The notes beneath the pieces are model-generated. The model saw only the letters and a program-made list of their open reading frames with translations, did no database searches and was not told where the DNA came from. Positions 2,778 to 6,930 of a stretch of 59,594 nucleotides of DNA are shown in pieces. Source of the DNA: Bacteroides sp. (GTDB taxonomy: Bacteria; Bacillota; Clostridia; Lachnospirales; Lachnospiraceae). The translations under genes and the position numbers were made by a program. Positions within the stretch are counted from its first letter, which is position 1; the number at the start of each line of letters is the position of its first letter. Where the stretch lies: assembly GCA_023666705.1 (NCBI GenBank), contig JAMPBO010000018.1:1-59594 (forward strand), written 5' to 3'.

Positions 2778-2817
2778 TGGGAAATAGGCTCAAAAAAAGC
2801 AGTAATGGAGGTTGCTT

Positions 2818-3597
2818 ATGAACAAAACAAAGATTGATTGGTGCGACAGTACATGGAATCCAGTAACGGGGTGCCTGCATGTGTGTGAATACTGCTATGC
2901 AAGGAATATAGCACACAGATTTGGCGGCTATACAGAATTGAGAGATACGGATTTGGATTATCAGAAACTTTGCGAAAGTGAAATTATGGAGTTGCAAAAA
3001 CCGCTAAAATTTCTAAATGACAAAGGCAAGGAGTTAAAAGCACCATATCCATTTTATTTTATGCCAACATTTCACCGTTACAGATTAGACGAACCACAAA
3101 AATGGAAGAAAGGCAGAAATGTTTTTGTGTGTTCAATGGCTGATTTGTTTGGGGATTGGGTGCCTGATTCGTGGATAGAGGAAGTATTTAAGGCTTGTGA
3201 GAAAGCACCACAGCACAATTATCTGTTTTTGACGAAGAATCCGAAACGGTATGTTGAATTGATAAACAACTCTGTTTTGGGAAAAACAGGAAATAATATG
3301 TGGTTTGGATATTCTTTTACAAACAAAGAAAATACGAGATGGTGGAATCCTGATTACAACATTTTTGTCAGCATAGAACCAATATTAGAACGTGTAGAGA
3401 TACCAATGTGCAAATGGATTATTGTGGGTGCGGAAACAGGCAGAAGAAAAGAAAAGGTTATTCCCCAAAGAGAATGGATTGAACATATTGTATATTGTTG
3501 CAAACAACATAATATCCCTATATTCATGAAATCAAGCCTTGCGGATATATGGGGAGAACCGCTGATACAGGAATTTCCGAAAGAGTTAAGAAAGTGA
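2818..3597 (+). CDS. Phage Gp37/Gp68 family protein (DUF5131)
   Basis: A 259-residue protein with the family hallmarks: TKIDWCDSTWNPVTGC at the N-terminus, then a CLHVCEYCYAR cluster (Cys at about 18, 22, 25) resembling a radical-SAM CxxxCxxC iron-sulfur motif. Later come MADLFGDWVPD (about 106-116), FLTKNPKR, FVSIEPIL and IVGAETG. The family is widespread in phages and islands; the chemistry is not established. The ATG at 2818 has a GGAGG site, while the in-frame TTG six bases earlier is disfavoured. It lies between small early genes, consistent with phage DNA or nucleotide metabolism. Confidence 0.88.
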   Translation: MNKTKIDWCDSTWNPVTGCLHVCEYCYARNIAHRFGGYTELRDTDLDYQKLCESEIMELQKPLKFLNDKGKELKAPYPFYFMPTFHRYRLDEPQKWKKGRNVFVCSMADLFGDWVPDSWIEEVFKACEKAPQHNYLFLTKNPKRYVELINNSVLGKTGNNMWFGYSFTNKENTRWWNPDYNIFVSIEPILERVEIPMCKWIIVGAETGRRKEKVIPQREWIEHIVYCCKQHNIPIFMKSSLADIWGEPLIQEFPKELRK

Positions 3598-3607
3598 GGT
3601 TGAGAGA

Positions 3608-3889
3608 ATGGAAGAATTGAAATCTTGTCCATTTTGCGGACATAAACCGAAATTAACGCATTACACAGAAAAGGCAAATGCAAGAGCAGGAATATCGGAA
3701 TTAAGTATTTACTGGGAAGTGCGTTGTAATTATTGTAGTTGTGTGCGTGACGGCGGATATTCAGAATATTTCATCAACGATGACGGACAACTTGTATTAA
3801 ATACAAAAGAATATGAGAAAGAGCCCGTAGACGCAAGGAAAAAGGCGATAGATGAATGGAATAGGAGGTGTCAAAATGACGGAGAATGA
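3608..3889 (+). CDS. Lar-family restriction-alleviation-like zinc protein
   Basis: A 93-residue protein with LKSCPFCGHKPKL at the N-terminus, a second CNYCSC pair (about residues 39-44), and the closing KKAIDEWNRR motif typical of Lar-like proteins. The two CxxC pairs should bind one zinc ion. Rac prophage Lar modulates type I restriction-modification, but most phage homologues are untested, so the name is by similarity only. The stop overlaps the next small frame by 14 bases and that frame has its own AGGAGG. Confidence 0.75.
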   Translation: MEELKSCPFCGHKPKLTHYTEKANARAGISELSIYWEVRCNYCSCVRDGGYSEYFINDDGQLVLNTKEYEKEPVDARKKAIDEWNRRCQNDGE

Positions 3890-4016
3890 AGCAATTAAGG
3901 AATTTAACAAAATGGTTGGCGGGTTCTGTCCAATTGCTGCAGAGGAACATGAGGAAAGGAACATGGATGTGATACTTTTAAAGCGAATTTATGTTATTTT
4001 AAAATTTTTGTTGTAA
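3876..4016 (+). CDS. Short, possibly truncated phage ORF (46 aa)
   Basis: An AGGAGG followed by ATG 3876 starts a 46-codon frame. The first part (MTENEAIKEFNKMVGG...EEHEERN) looks like the N-terminus of common small prophage proteins. The last 17 codons (after about 3960) are AT-rich and hydrophobic (VILLKRIYVILKFLL), unlike the start. The composition change coincides with the left edge of the AT-rich cargo pair. I read it as a gene cut by the recombination that brought in the cargo. Confidence 0.45.
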   Translation: MTENEAIKEFNKMVGGFCPIAAEEHEERNMDVILLKRIYVILKFLL

Positions 4017-4075: not shown

Positions 4076-4654
4076 ATGTCAAAATTATCAATTATTAAGT
4101 TGTATAAGGAAAACTATGATTGCATTGGCTCTTGTTTACGAACACCATCAAGAGATATAACAGAAGATGAGTTTGGAAGTAAATGGTTAGAAACTTTTAT
4201 TTTTGATATGTTTGAGACATTATACAATAGCTCAAGTGGTGTTGGCATAGCTGCAAATCAAGTAGGGTTATTGAAACGAATATGTGTGGTAGATATAAAG
4301 CGAGATGGTAAATCTCCAATTGTATTATTAAATCCTGCGTACAGTGCTGTTAATGATGAATTGATTAATTCTCGAGAAGTATGTTTGAGTTTCCCTAATG
4401 TATATTCAAATGTCAAGAGGCATAAAAAAGTATCTGTTGTGTATCAGAATTTTTATGGAGAAAAATGTTCTCTGATAGCGGAAGGTTTTAAGGCTAGTGT
4501 TTTTCAACATGAGATAGACCATTTGTATGGCATAGTTCATGTTGACTTAAACCAAGATGATGAAATAAATGAGAATTTAGATTATTCTGCACAAGTTGCT
4601 AAAAAAGCAGTAGAAACAATAGTTAGGAGGGGAGAATGTGGAAACAAAAGATAA
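4076..4654 (+). CDS. Peptide deformylase homologue in prophage cargo
   Basis: A 192-residue protein with all three deformylase motifs: GVGIAANQ (55-62), EVCLS (101-105, metal ligand Cys103) and QHEIDH (144-149, ligands His145 and His149, catalytic Glu146). Deformylases remove the N-formyl group from nascent proteins with an Fe or Zn centre. Motif 2 is normally EGCLS; the Gly is Val here. The ligands are intact, so activity is plausible with altered peptide specificity. A GGGGGGGAGG site precedes the ATG. Its last 17 bases overlap the two-TM gene, a strong sign of coupled function. The pair is much more AT-rich than the surrounding phage genes. Confidence 0.85.
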   Translation: MSKLSIIKLYKENYDCIGSCLRTPSRDITEDEFGSKWLETFIFDMFETLYNSSSGVGIAANQVGLLKRICVVDIKRDGKSPIVLLNPAYSAVNDELINSREVCLSFPNVYSNVKRHKKVSVVYQNFYGEKCSLIAEGFKASVFQHEIDHLYGIVHVDLNQDDEINENLDYSAQVAKKAVETIVRRGECGNKR

Positions 4655-5426
4655 TAAGGTTTTTCTATATCTTGGATTAATAGATGCAATAATAGGTATT
4701 TCTGATTTCGTTATAAAAGCGATTAAAAATTCCCAAATTGTAATATCTCCACTTACAAAAATTTGTATATTGGTATTATTAATTTGTATTATGCTATATT
4801 TTGTTATAAATAATGTAACATTGGGGTATACTGTTCGAAAGTATTTAAGTTATTGGTTAAGACGACAGGACTCATACACGGTATTGAATAAAGAATGTAT
4901 TTATACATATTTATCTAAAGATAAAATCGAGTATACAAAAAAACATGAAATAATATCTAACGTTAATAATTTACAACATTTTAGTGATAAGTTTAAATGG
5001 TCAAAAAACCAATCTGTAAGTGAGATTAATATTGTAGATGACAATCCTAATCATGAAATTTCTGTTAAGCGTATTGAGAATTGGCATCAATATTCAGTGG
5101 AGTTTGAACAATTGGGGAAAAGACAAGAAGAAACAATTAAAGTTACAATAAAAGATTTAAACGATCCTTATGGAGAGGCTATGCCATTTTTGTCATCTAA
5201 TGTTGTATATAAGACAAAAAAGTTAAGATTAGTTATACATTTTAATGATCCAAGTTTAAAACCTATTAATATTAAATATAAAATATTTGATAATTATGCT
5301 AGCGATTATCCTCTAATTCAGAAAAATTTGGAATATGATGATGCTGCCCGTAAAATTGAAAAAAGTGAGAATAAACCTATCTATGGTTTTAGATATGTAA
5401 TAACTTGGGACTTTAAAAATGATTGA
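4638..5426 (+). CDS. Two-transmembrane protein with soluble C-terminal domain
   Basis: A GTG start at 4638 (AGGAGGGGAGA upstream) gives 262 residues. Two membrane helices lie at about 8-28 and 41-63, separated by a short polar turn, so both termini face the same side. The remaining 200 residues are soluble, rich in alternating polar/hydrophobic strands and in Lys and Asn, and match no family I can name. The architecture resembles two-TM beta-rich effectors described in prokaryotic conflict systems, but that is a structural analogy. It overlaps the deformylase homologue and is followed by a perfect-palindrome terminator, so the two form a self-contained bicistronic unit. Confidence 0.6.
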   Translation: METKDNKVFLYLGLIDAIIGISDFVIKAIKNSQIVISPLTKICILVLLICIMLYFVINNVTLGYTVRKYLSYWLRRQDSYTVLNKECIYTYLSKDKIEYTKKHEIISNVNNLQHFSDKFKWSKNQSVSEINIVDDNPNHEISVKRIENWHQYSVEFEQLGKRQEETIKVTIKDLNDPYGEAMPFLSSNVVYKTKKLRLVIHFNDPSLKPINIKYKIFDNYASDYPLIQKNLEYDDAARKIEKSENKPIYGFRYVITWDFKND

Positions 5427-5572
5427 CTTTTGTGATGGTTGGTGTTACACTGTTCAAAAGTGAGAATCAGCATACGAGATTGAGTCGTATTAGGAGGGAT
5501 TTTATGGATTAAGTAATTGTTAAGTTATTTGTAGCTAACTGTTGTTATATTAAAAAATGAATGCGAAGGGCT

Positions 5573-5607
5573 GAGTAGACAGGAATATTCCTGTCTACTC
5601 GCTTTTT
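5573..5607 (+). terminator. Perfect-palindrome terminator after cargo pair
   Basis: GAGTAGACAGGAAT pairs perfectly with its complement over 28 bases (5573-5600), followed by GCTTTTTT. It is placed to end transcription about 150 bases after the two-TM gene. The core resembles that of the hairpin at 6000-6036. Confidence 0.85.
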
Positions 5608-5999
5608 TGTCTTTATTGCAGAAATGAGTATGAAAGTGCATAGCGTTATACTAAGGATATTTTATGTCAGAAAAAATGGTTGAAAAGAATTTATTATCAC
5701 GAAAGCGATATTTGAAAAAAATTTTCGCACAATAGAATTGCTAGGTTGTAAATATTGTTATGCTGTGAAATTATGGCTGTTCTTATAAAAAAGGAGTGAT
5801 AATCATAAGCGTATATAAATTCATATCTTCAATAATAGCATTCAAAGATTTCTTTTGGAATTATTAACATATGGTTCAAACAAATAAATAACTAAGTACA
5901 ATAGGGTTTGATAAAAAGAAGACACCCTAGTTTTGCAACATTATGTATTTTATCTCTTGCAATTCCCAAATTCCATGATAACATAATATTAGAGCCAAA
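5608..5999 (+). other. Non-coding, decayed segment with two dead mini-ORFs
   Basis: No full gene is seen. A 23-codon basic frame (5664-5735, ATG after TAAGGAT) and a 20-codon frame (5805-5867) are present. The second has an excellent AAAAAAGGAGTGATAATC leader but begins with ATA instead of ATG, so it looks like a gene that lost its start codon. The segment lies between two related terminator hairpins and reads as leftover sequence from cargo exchange. Confidence 0.4.
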
Positions 6000-6041
6000 G
6001 AGCCAAGTAGATAGGAATATCCTATCTGCCTGGCTCTTTTT
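6000..6041 (+). terminator. Terminator-like hairpin before packaging genes
   Basis: Arms GAGCCA (6000-6005) and TGGCTC (6031-6036), with inner GATAGGA/TCCTATC, are followed by five T. The inner stem shares the TAGAYAGGAATAT core with 5573-5600. It ends 28 bases before the terminase small-subunit start, so late transcription must start after it or read through it. Confidence 0.7.
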
Positions 6042-6069
6042 GTATTTATCGGTAAGGAAGGTGGCATAC

Positions 6070-6930
6070 ATGGCAAATAATGAAAAAGTAAATAAAGCGT
6101 TTGCCTTGTATCAGGAGGGCAGGAAGCTAAAGGATATAGCAGCAGAATTGGATGTTCCTGAAGGTACGATAAGGAGCTGGAAGAATCGCTACAAGTGGGA
6201 TAATGGGGAAAGGGAAAGCGTTGCAACGAAACACAAAAACGTTGCAACGCAAAAACGCAACGTTGCAAATGAGCGTTGCAACGGTACAGCCATTATGGAG
6301 GATGCCATAAAGGAAACTTTTGATAATAACGAGCTGACACCACAACAGCAAGTATTCTGTGCACATTATATTAAGACATACAATGCAACCCAAAGTTACA
6401 TAAAAGCATTCGGATGCAGTTATAACGTAGCAAATGCTGAGGGGTATAAACTACTTGTAAATCCTTGTATTGCAAAAGAATTAGACCGCCTGAAAGAGAT
6501 TAAACGCAGGCAGATAGAGTTTGAGGAGACTGATTTAGTTGAATATCATATGAGGATTGCATTTGCAGATATTGGAGATTATCTCACATTTGGCAGCAAG
6601 GATGTGGGCAATGGGATAAAAGAGAATGTGGTAACGCTGAATGCATCAGATACGGTTGATACCCAACTCATTCAGGAAGTAAAGCAGGGAAAAAGCGGTG
6701 TGACAATCAAATTGGCGGACAAGCATAAGTCACTGGAATGGCTTGATAAGCATTTCTTATACAATCCGATGGATAAGCATAAGCAGGAATATGACAGACA
6801 GAAATATGAGCTGGAGCTTCTCAGGCTTGAGATGCAGGTAAAAGATAGTGATATGGCTGCATCTGATGTTGAAGATAATTTCATGGAAGCCTTAAATGCA
6901 GTTGCAGGAGAGGTGTGGTCAGATGGATAA
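6070..6930 (+). CDS. Terminase small subunit
   Basis: A 286-residue protein. The N-terminus (about 1-45) has a helix-turn-helix read as DIAAELDVPEGTIRSWKNRY, typical of PBSX/YqaS-type small terminases. Residues about 45-70 are encoded by the palindrome array and are low in complexity. Residues about 80-230 match the Terminase_2 domain (LTPQQQVFCAHY...NATQSYIKAFG). The C-terminus is charged and helical. The ATG at 6070 has AAGGAAGG nine bases upstream; an upstream in-frame start at 5908 would translate the hairpin and has no SD. It binds the packaging site and stimulates the large subunit, whose gene it overlaps by 8 bases. Confidence 0.9.
   Translation: MANNEKVNKAFALYQEGRKLKDIAAELDVPEGTIRSWKNRYKWDNGERESVATKHKNVATQKRNVANERCNGTAIMEDAIKETFDNNELTPQQQVFCAHYIKTYNATQSYIKAFGCSYNVANAEGYKLLVNPCIAKELDRLKEIKRRQIEFEETDLVEYHMRIAFADIGDYLTFGSKDVGNGIKENVVTLNASDTVDTQLIQEVKQGKSGVTIKLADKHKSLEWLDKHFLYNPMDKHKQEYDRQKYELELLRLEMQVKDSDMAASDVEDNFMEALNAVAGEVWSDG
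6219..6283 (+). repeat. Four copies of palindrome CGTTGCAACG in terminase gene
   Basis: The 10-base palindrome CGTTGCAACG occurs at 6219-6228, 6240-6249 and 6274-6283, with a fourth copy at 6261-6270 changed only in the last two bases. Four near-identical palindromes in 65 bases inside the small terminase gene are a good candidate for the packaging (pac) site or the terminase binding array. Confidence 0.7.

Follow-up and report, generated by a model that had tools for sequence, protein, structure and literature searches.

The window analysed here, a stretch of 59,594 nucleotides, contains towards its left end two overlapping genes on the plus strand. The first (positions 4076..4654, ATG start) encodes a peptide deformylase (PDF) homologue of 192 amino acids that matches Pfam family PF01327, and the second (4638..5426, GTG start) encodes a protein of 262 amino acids in which hydropathy indicates two transmembrane (TM) helices. 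Both sets of coordinates and the 17-base overlap, as given in an earlier note made from the letters alone, were reproduced in the list of open reading frames. A Shine–Dalgarno-like AGGAG, read by eye at 4625..4629 on the same strand, lies within the PDF gene and leaves a spacing of 8 bases to the GTG of the two-TM gene, which it would serve. This placement makes it probable that translation of the PDF gene and the two-TM gene is coupled.

The pair is preceded by a DUF5131 gene (2812-3597; PADLOC PDC-M41B at 5.6e-42, with matches to PDC-M30B and phrog_2045) and, immediately 5′ of it, by a gene for a Lar-like restriction alleviation protein (3608-3889; PF14354, 8.9e-09). It is followed by the genes for the terminase small subunit (terS; 6061..6930, plus strand; phrog_2606, 6e-77), which forms the downstream bound of the cassette, and the terminase large subunit (terL). 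These neighbours identify the setting as a prophage, in agreement with the earlier note. The contig itself starts where the window starts (base 1), so the prophage may be truncated on that side. Relatives of the DUF5131 gene are present at 58 viral loci, and the PADLOC entries that it matches are phage-defence candidates.

The foreign, AT-rich composition attributed to the pair relative to the adjoining phage genes is likewise evident gene by gene. The GC content is 0.320 in the PDF gene and 0.257 in the two-TM gene (0.21 and 0.17 at third positions), compared with 0.37-0.41 (third positions 0.36-0.43) in the DUF5131, terS and terL genes and 0.385 (0.32) in the antirepressor gene. On the 5′ side, GC falls from 0.45 to 0.17 between the 60-base steps at 3920 and 3980. 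A 46-codon open reading frame starting with MTENEAIKEF is found here (3876..4016, plus strand); its first residues are similar to those of longer phage frames of 112-114 amino acids at other loci (L201 and L208), and a BLAST search with its first 32 residues gave an E value of 0.77 at best. Judged from the GC drop and this weak similarity, the 46-codon frame may be a phage gene that was cut short, and the drop may show where the cassette entered.

On the 3′ side, a terminator-like hairpin with a T tail follows the pair (5572..5601, plus strand), found in a scan whose single hit is a count not above chance (mean of 0.7 in shuffled sequences). A second hairpin with a similar core, an inverted repeat, lies immediately 5′ of terS (5997..6039, plus strand); the two share the near-identical core GTAGA.AGGAATAT and flank about 400 bases before terS in which no gene was called. 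The number of promoter-like sites (16, against 14.3 in shuffled sequences) provides no evidence of a promoter belonging to the pair, and an Rfam scan produced a match at chance level only.

The PDF homologue matches PF01327 at 1.1e-40; it scores above the cut-off of NCBIfam TIGR00079 (112.9 bits, cut-off 103.95) and below that of NF001159 (120.7, cut-off 125). The three deformylase motifs with intact metal ligands that had been read from the translation are present, motif I being GVGIAANQ and motif III, which holds the HExxH metal site, QHEIDHLYG, with Cys103, His145, the catalytic Glu146 and His149 in place. The reported substitution of valine for glycine in motif II, giving EVCLS instead of EGCLS, is also real, and this variant occurs in none of the 147 other PDF rows with a motif II (120 EGCLS, 11 EACLS, 4 ESCLS and 12 others). 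This count derives from 161 rows, five of which are copies of the window; nine of the 156 others, near-duplicates included, lack motif II by the pattern used. According to PMC12690207, exact motifs are an unreliable sign of PDF activity and are not needed for it, so that EVCLS does not mark the enzyme as dead. At the position equated with Arg97 the window PDF has a tyrosine, which says little since this is the commonest residue in the set (35 of 129 rows including the window, 34 of 128 without it); arginine occurs in 15.

The host does possess a deformylase of its own, as the earlier note had assumed: a canonical def gene is located elsewhere in the genome (G000:C5:41089-41514), and its product scores higher than the window PDF (168.1 versus 139.3 bits). 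A quick tree was built from 145 PDF rows, leaving out window copies, the larger stretch L263 and rows outside 125-230 amino acids; its end branches are long. In this tree the window PDF and that of locus L054 are sisters with 98% SH-aLRT support, and the host def (L169) lies far off within the clade of its genus. The lineage of the window PDF is distinct from that of the host's own def, and the presence of a second PDF in the genome together with this separate position rules out that it is the housekeeping enzyme. Close relatives are rare: they were found at E values up to 1e-25 in three of 392 genomes of the order, the host included, and at 1e-27 in the host alone among 229 genomes of the phylum. 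The third of these relatives at 1e-25 (L088) has neighbours that we take to be ordinary, priA- and fmt-like genes.

The sister PDF, 42% identical to the window PDF over the whole length, belongs to a genome of the same order as the host (G055), in which the larger stretch L263 (G055:C32:72000-84000) carries it at 6162-6716 on the minus strand. Downstream genes in the same orientation encode a GIY-YIG/DUF4357 protein (PADLOC PDC-S14, 3.7e-98), a type I methyltransferase (1.5e-117) and specificity subunit (1.6e-115), and an ATPase resembling PrrC (1.1e-119); the other flank of the PDF gene carries a gene for a WYL-type protein. Judged by this gene content, the closest relative of the window PDF is located in a defence island. 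The two PDFs are thus alike in sequence and tree position and differ in motif II, which is ESCLS in the relative, and in their partner, the neighbour in this single case being the GIY-YIG/DUF4357 protein and not a TM protein.

The second protein of the pair had been described as two TM helices followed by a soluble domain of no recognized family, and this description holds: the two hydrophobic segments begin at residues 8 and 39, and profile scans were negative. Scans of PADLOC and NCBIfam (both with E up to 1) and of PHROGs (E up to 0.1) gave no match, and the two Pfam matches, both over the TM region, stay below cut-off: DUF5687 at E 0.0036 with 17.1 bits (cut-off 33), and Orf78 at 0.28. AlphaFold2 models of the full protein and of the domain alone are poor (mean pLDDT 47.5 and 42.4); the full-length model has two N-terminal helices with block pLDDT of about 70-79, followed by low-confidence strands. 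Foldseek searches with these models gave no match at E up to 0.001, and their match lists carry no information. A sequence search of the PDB with the soluble domain gave a best E value of 1.3. The protein is predicted, from hydropathy and low-confidence models, to consist of two TM helices and a β-rich soluble domain spanning approximately residues 76-262 (4863..5423, plus strand).

Direct searches with the two-TM protein found no relatives in viral contigs, plasmids or phages, and matched three of 61 related genomes and five of 391 genomes of the class, the host included in both counts. Apart from the protein described next, the matches outside the host (L002 and L258-L261) were judged to be due to chance or TM-driven, with stop-containing reading frames among them; they presumably include an NfeD-like protein and a sigma-factor neighbour.

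In the search of the 61 related genomes, the soluble part of the two-TM protein matched at 4.4e-4 a protein from a genome of the same genus as the host (G019, L262:563-2911). This protein of 782 amino acids, P0003, matches the PADLOC dCTPase profile at 9e-125 over residues 6-589, and the match to the two-TM protein falls at its C-terminal residues 601-782. Since the dCTPase match stops at residue 589, the region common to the two proteins is an added domain. BLASTP gives 27% identity over 119 amino acids with a pair E value of 7e-7, and the local alignment score of 100 is reached by none of 1000 shuffles (mean 35.4, s.d. 6.2, maximum 62). The domains are both about 185 amino acids long, and the alignment extends to both C-termini, RYVITWDFKND and TYCIQWKFK, which have Y-x-I-x-W-x-F-K in common. 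The reverse search, with the P0003 domain against 25 genomes, ranked the two-TM protein first at 2.3e-4, followed at 0.043 by a match that looks like chance. Allowing for multiplicity, 4.4e-4 becomes approximately 0.03 over the 61 genomes and approximately 0.2 when the 391 genomes of the class are added, so the score alone is marginal, and other matches with similar scores look spurious. Because the match lies in the added domain of a defence protein and the two domains have equal length and the same C-terminal signature, we nevertheless regard it as probable that the soluble part of the two-TM protein and the domain added to the C-terminus of this deaminase are homologues.

Such homology would link the two-TM protein to anti-phage dCTP deaminases (PADLOC dCTPase, AvcD type) through the extra domain only. 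The two-TM protein has no P-loop or deaminase part that matches Pfam or PADLOC, and three named plasmid relatives of P0003, with only 624-627 amino acids, have no room for the extra domain and lack it. A search for the dCTP deaminase family (E up to 1e-40) gave matches in 17 of 295 genomes of the order; only one match (L266) is near full length, the others being short single-domain ones. A two-row profile of the common domain recovered the window only among 299 genomes of the family, and the window and G019 only among 37 genomes of the genus. Viral scans with the common domain and with the full deaminase revealed no further carrier of the domain, plasmid and phage searches gave none either, and hmmsearch of the open reading frames of 292 fetched loci gave no further domain member under the inclusion threshold. 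A candidate at phmmer 0.0055 (L261) was rejected as a member, being what we take to be a response-regulator-like protein.

The earlier note had proposed searching for both proteins together across genomes, and this check went against it: the window holds the only instance seen. The genome, viral, plasmid and phage collections searched yielded no other copy of the PDF and two-TM gene pair, and the closest PDF relative has no two-TM neighbour. Among 134 PDF loci read, 22 without a same-strand gene within 200 bases downstream were set aside, and none of the remaining 112 has a two-TM neighbour in that position; the table omits 24 PDF loci without a called open reading frame, two window copies and six weak viral loci (L047-L052). 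The objection that deformylases mostly occur without the TM gene therefore largely holds as far as sampled. The slot 5′ of the terminase varies; it was read at 16 of 28 loci, most of which have small phage genes there, and four of eight open reading frames scanned from it have a PADLOC match at E up to 0.01. In the clearest case, in a related phage (L178:2730-5369), the gene for an HNH protein (8.3e-08) with an N-terminal TM segment adjoins an SspH/HerA-like ATPase gene (1.5e-45) upstream of the terminase gene, forming a candidate defence pair in the same slot. A record labelled 'Bacteriophage sp.' (MT835528.1; L085, 6910-15365) was rejected as a phage relative because the stretch reads like a bacterial priA-def-fmt region; we take its genes to be chromosomal and the record to be probably a misassigned contig.

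The pair is best explained as horizontally acquired prophage cargo, most likely an anti-phage (superinfection) module in which the PDF would restrain an effector, a reading to which we assign a probability of roughly 0.4. The anti-phage role suggested in the earlier note stands in so far as the soluble domain resembles a domain of a defence dCTP deaminase and the nearest PDF lies in a defence island; it is weakened by the uniqueness of the pair, with no counterpart at the 112 loci. The HNH and ATPase genes in front of the same terminase gene in a related phage also speak for defence cargo. The suggestion in the earlier note that the enzyme might sense or modify formyl groups on phage proteins is conjectural. 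PADLOC matches neither protein of the pair. No defence pair of a PDF and a membrane protein was among the matches listed by a literature search whose scope lay mostly outside subscription journals. A defence role for the pair is moderately supported by the relationships of its two genes, and how the PDF would act on an effector is something we infer by analogy.

In this scheme the two-TM protein would be a membrane effector, its soluble domain possibly serving as a sensing or docking part. The PDF, made first and with coupled translation, would keep the effector quiet, either through direct binding or by processing the formylated N-terminus of the effector, close to its TM region. An infecting phage that titrates, inhibits or depletes the PDF, or that overloads it with formylated proteins of its own, would release the effector, and the resulting membrane damage would halt phage growth. 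Such an arrangement would follow the logic of Panoptes or of a toxin–antitoxin pair with the antitoxin gene first, and the proposal that the PDF restrains the two-TM protein is drawn from analogy to Panoptes and AvcD. In Panoptes, the nearest functional analogue, OptS as described in PMC12657218 constitutively restrains OptE, which has two TM helices and a β-barrel domain, and phage interference with the OptS product frees OptE; AvcD, a deoxycytidylate deaminase, is released once transcription shut-off has removed its RNA antitoxin (PMC10511110). The Panoptes OptS-OptE pair and CBASS Cap15 also resemble the window pair in having the enzyme gene first and a protein with two N-terminal TM helices and a β-rich part second (PMC12657218), but the enzyme here is a PDF and theirs is a nucleotide synthase, and the soluble domain of the two-TM protein is unlike that of the one Cap15 compared.

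The main rival to this interpretation is an accessory deformylase that serves the lysogen or the phage, by inhibitor tolerance or by extra deformylation during phage growth, with the two-TM gene as unrelated overlapping cargo; we regard it as possible, if on the unlikely side. Mobile-element PDFs are common without a link to defence, and at 1e-5 they were found in 908 plasmid and 165 phage records. PMC12690207 reports that 48% of 5,042 reference species have more than one PDF, with mobile elements as a frequent location, and that integron or Def2-type PDFs lower actinonin susceptibility through a change of Arg97 to Tyr; a preprint cited there describes induction of Vibrio prophages by PDF inhibition. 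The window PDF shares with these accessory enzymes its status as a second PDF in the genome, its location on a mobile element and the tyrosine at the position equated with Arg97. It differs from them in its EVCLS motif, its separate lineage in the quick tree and the coupled two-TM gene. The tyrosine, moreover, is the residue most often seen at this position, motif II deviates from EGCLS, and an accessory role accounts neither for the tight overlap of the two genes nor for the defence island around the nearest relative.

A plain toxin–antitoxin system, with a membrane toxin and the PDF as antitoxin, would promote prophage stability and make any phage defence incidental. The gene order, the 17-base overlap, the small size, the AT-richness and the two TM helices near the N-terminus are all consistent with this, but the PDF belongs to no known antitoxin family, and we consider the explanation improbable. 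To our knowledge, a folded metalloenzyme with intact ligands would also be unlike the usual antitoxins.

Small prophage membrane proteins often act in superinfection exclusion, and the two-TM protein could by itself block DNA entry at the envelope in this way, with the PDF passive. A soluble domain of this size, with a probable counterpart in a cytoplasmic nucleotide enzyme, does not point to a barrier at the stage of DNA entry, and envelope exclusion appears slightly less probable still.

The two-TM protein was also compared with a Cap15 (L286) from what we take to be a CBASS-like neighbourhood, its upstream gene reading like a CD-NTase. The soluble parts align with a score of 31, against a shuffle mean of 29.7 with 179 of 500 shuffles as high, and an hhalign probability of 0.2; the N-terminal parts score 35, against 28.0 with 62 of 500 as high. 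It is thus very unlikely that the two-TM protein is an S-2TMβ effector of the Cap15 or OptE family whose nucleotide cyclase partner was lost or exchanged: despite the same layout of two N-terminal TM helices, a β-rich domain and an enzyme-first two-gene operon, a Pfam scan with E up to 1 lists no PF18153 match, the partner is a PDF and not a CD-NTase or mCpol, and membership of the Cap15 family was rejected on the shuffle-level score against this one Cap15.

A more far-reaching version of the preferred reading, in which the PDF restrains the two-TM effector, is that this is the first PDF-based defence system. The PDF would guard the effector and so allow the cell to detect interference with N-terminal processing or at the translation exit, the possible triggers being inhibitors from the phage, a halt in host gene expression or an excess of formylated phage proteins; the sensor would be a mobile β-rich domain, also carried by a dCTP deaminase, from an unnamed defence-associated family. 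This version is doubtful at present. If it holds, phage defence would monitor or weaponise the processing of N-terminal methionine, some accessory PDFs would be explained otherwise than by inhibitor tolerance, and the soluble domain would be a new module common to a membrane effector and a nucleotide-depleting enzyme.
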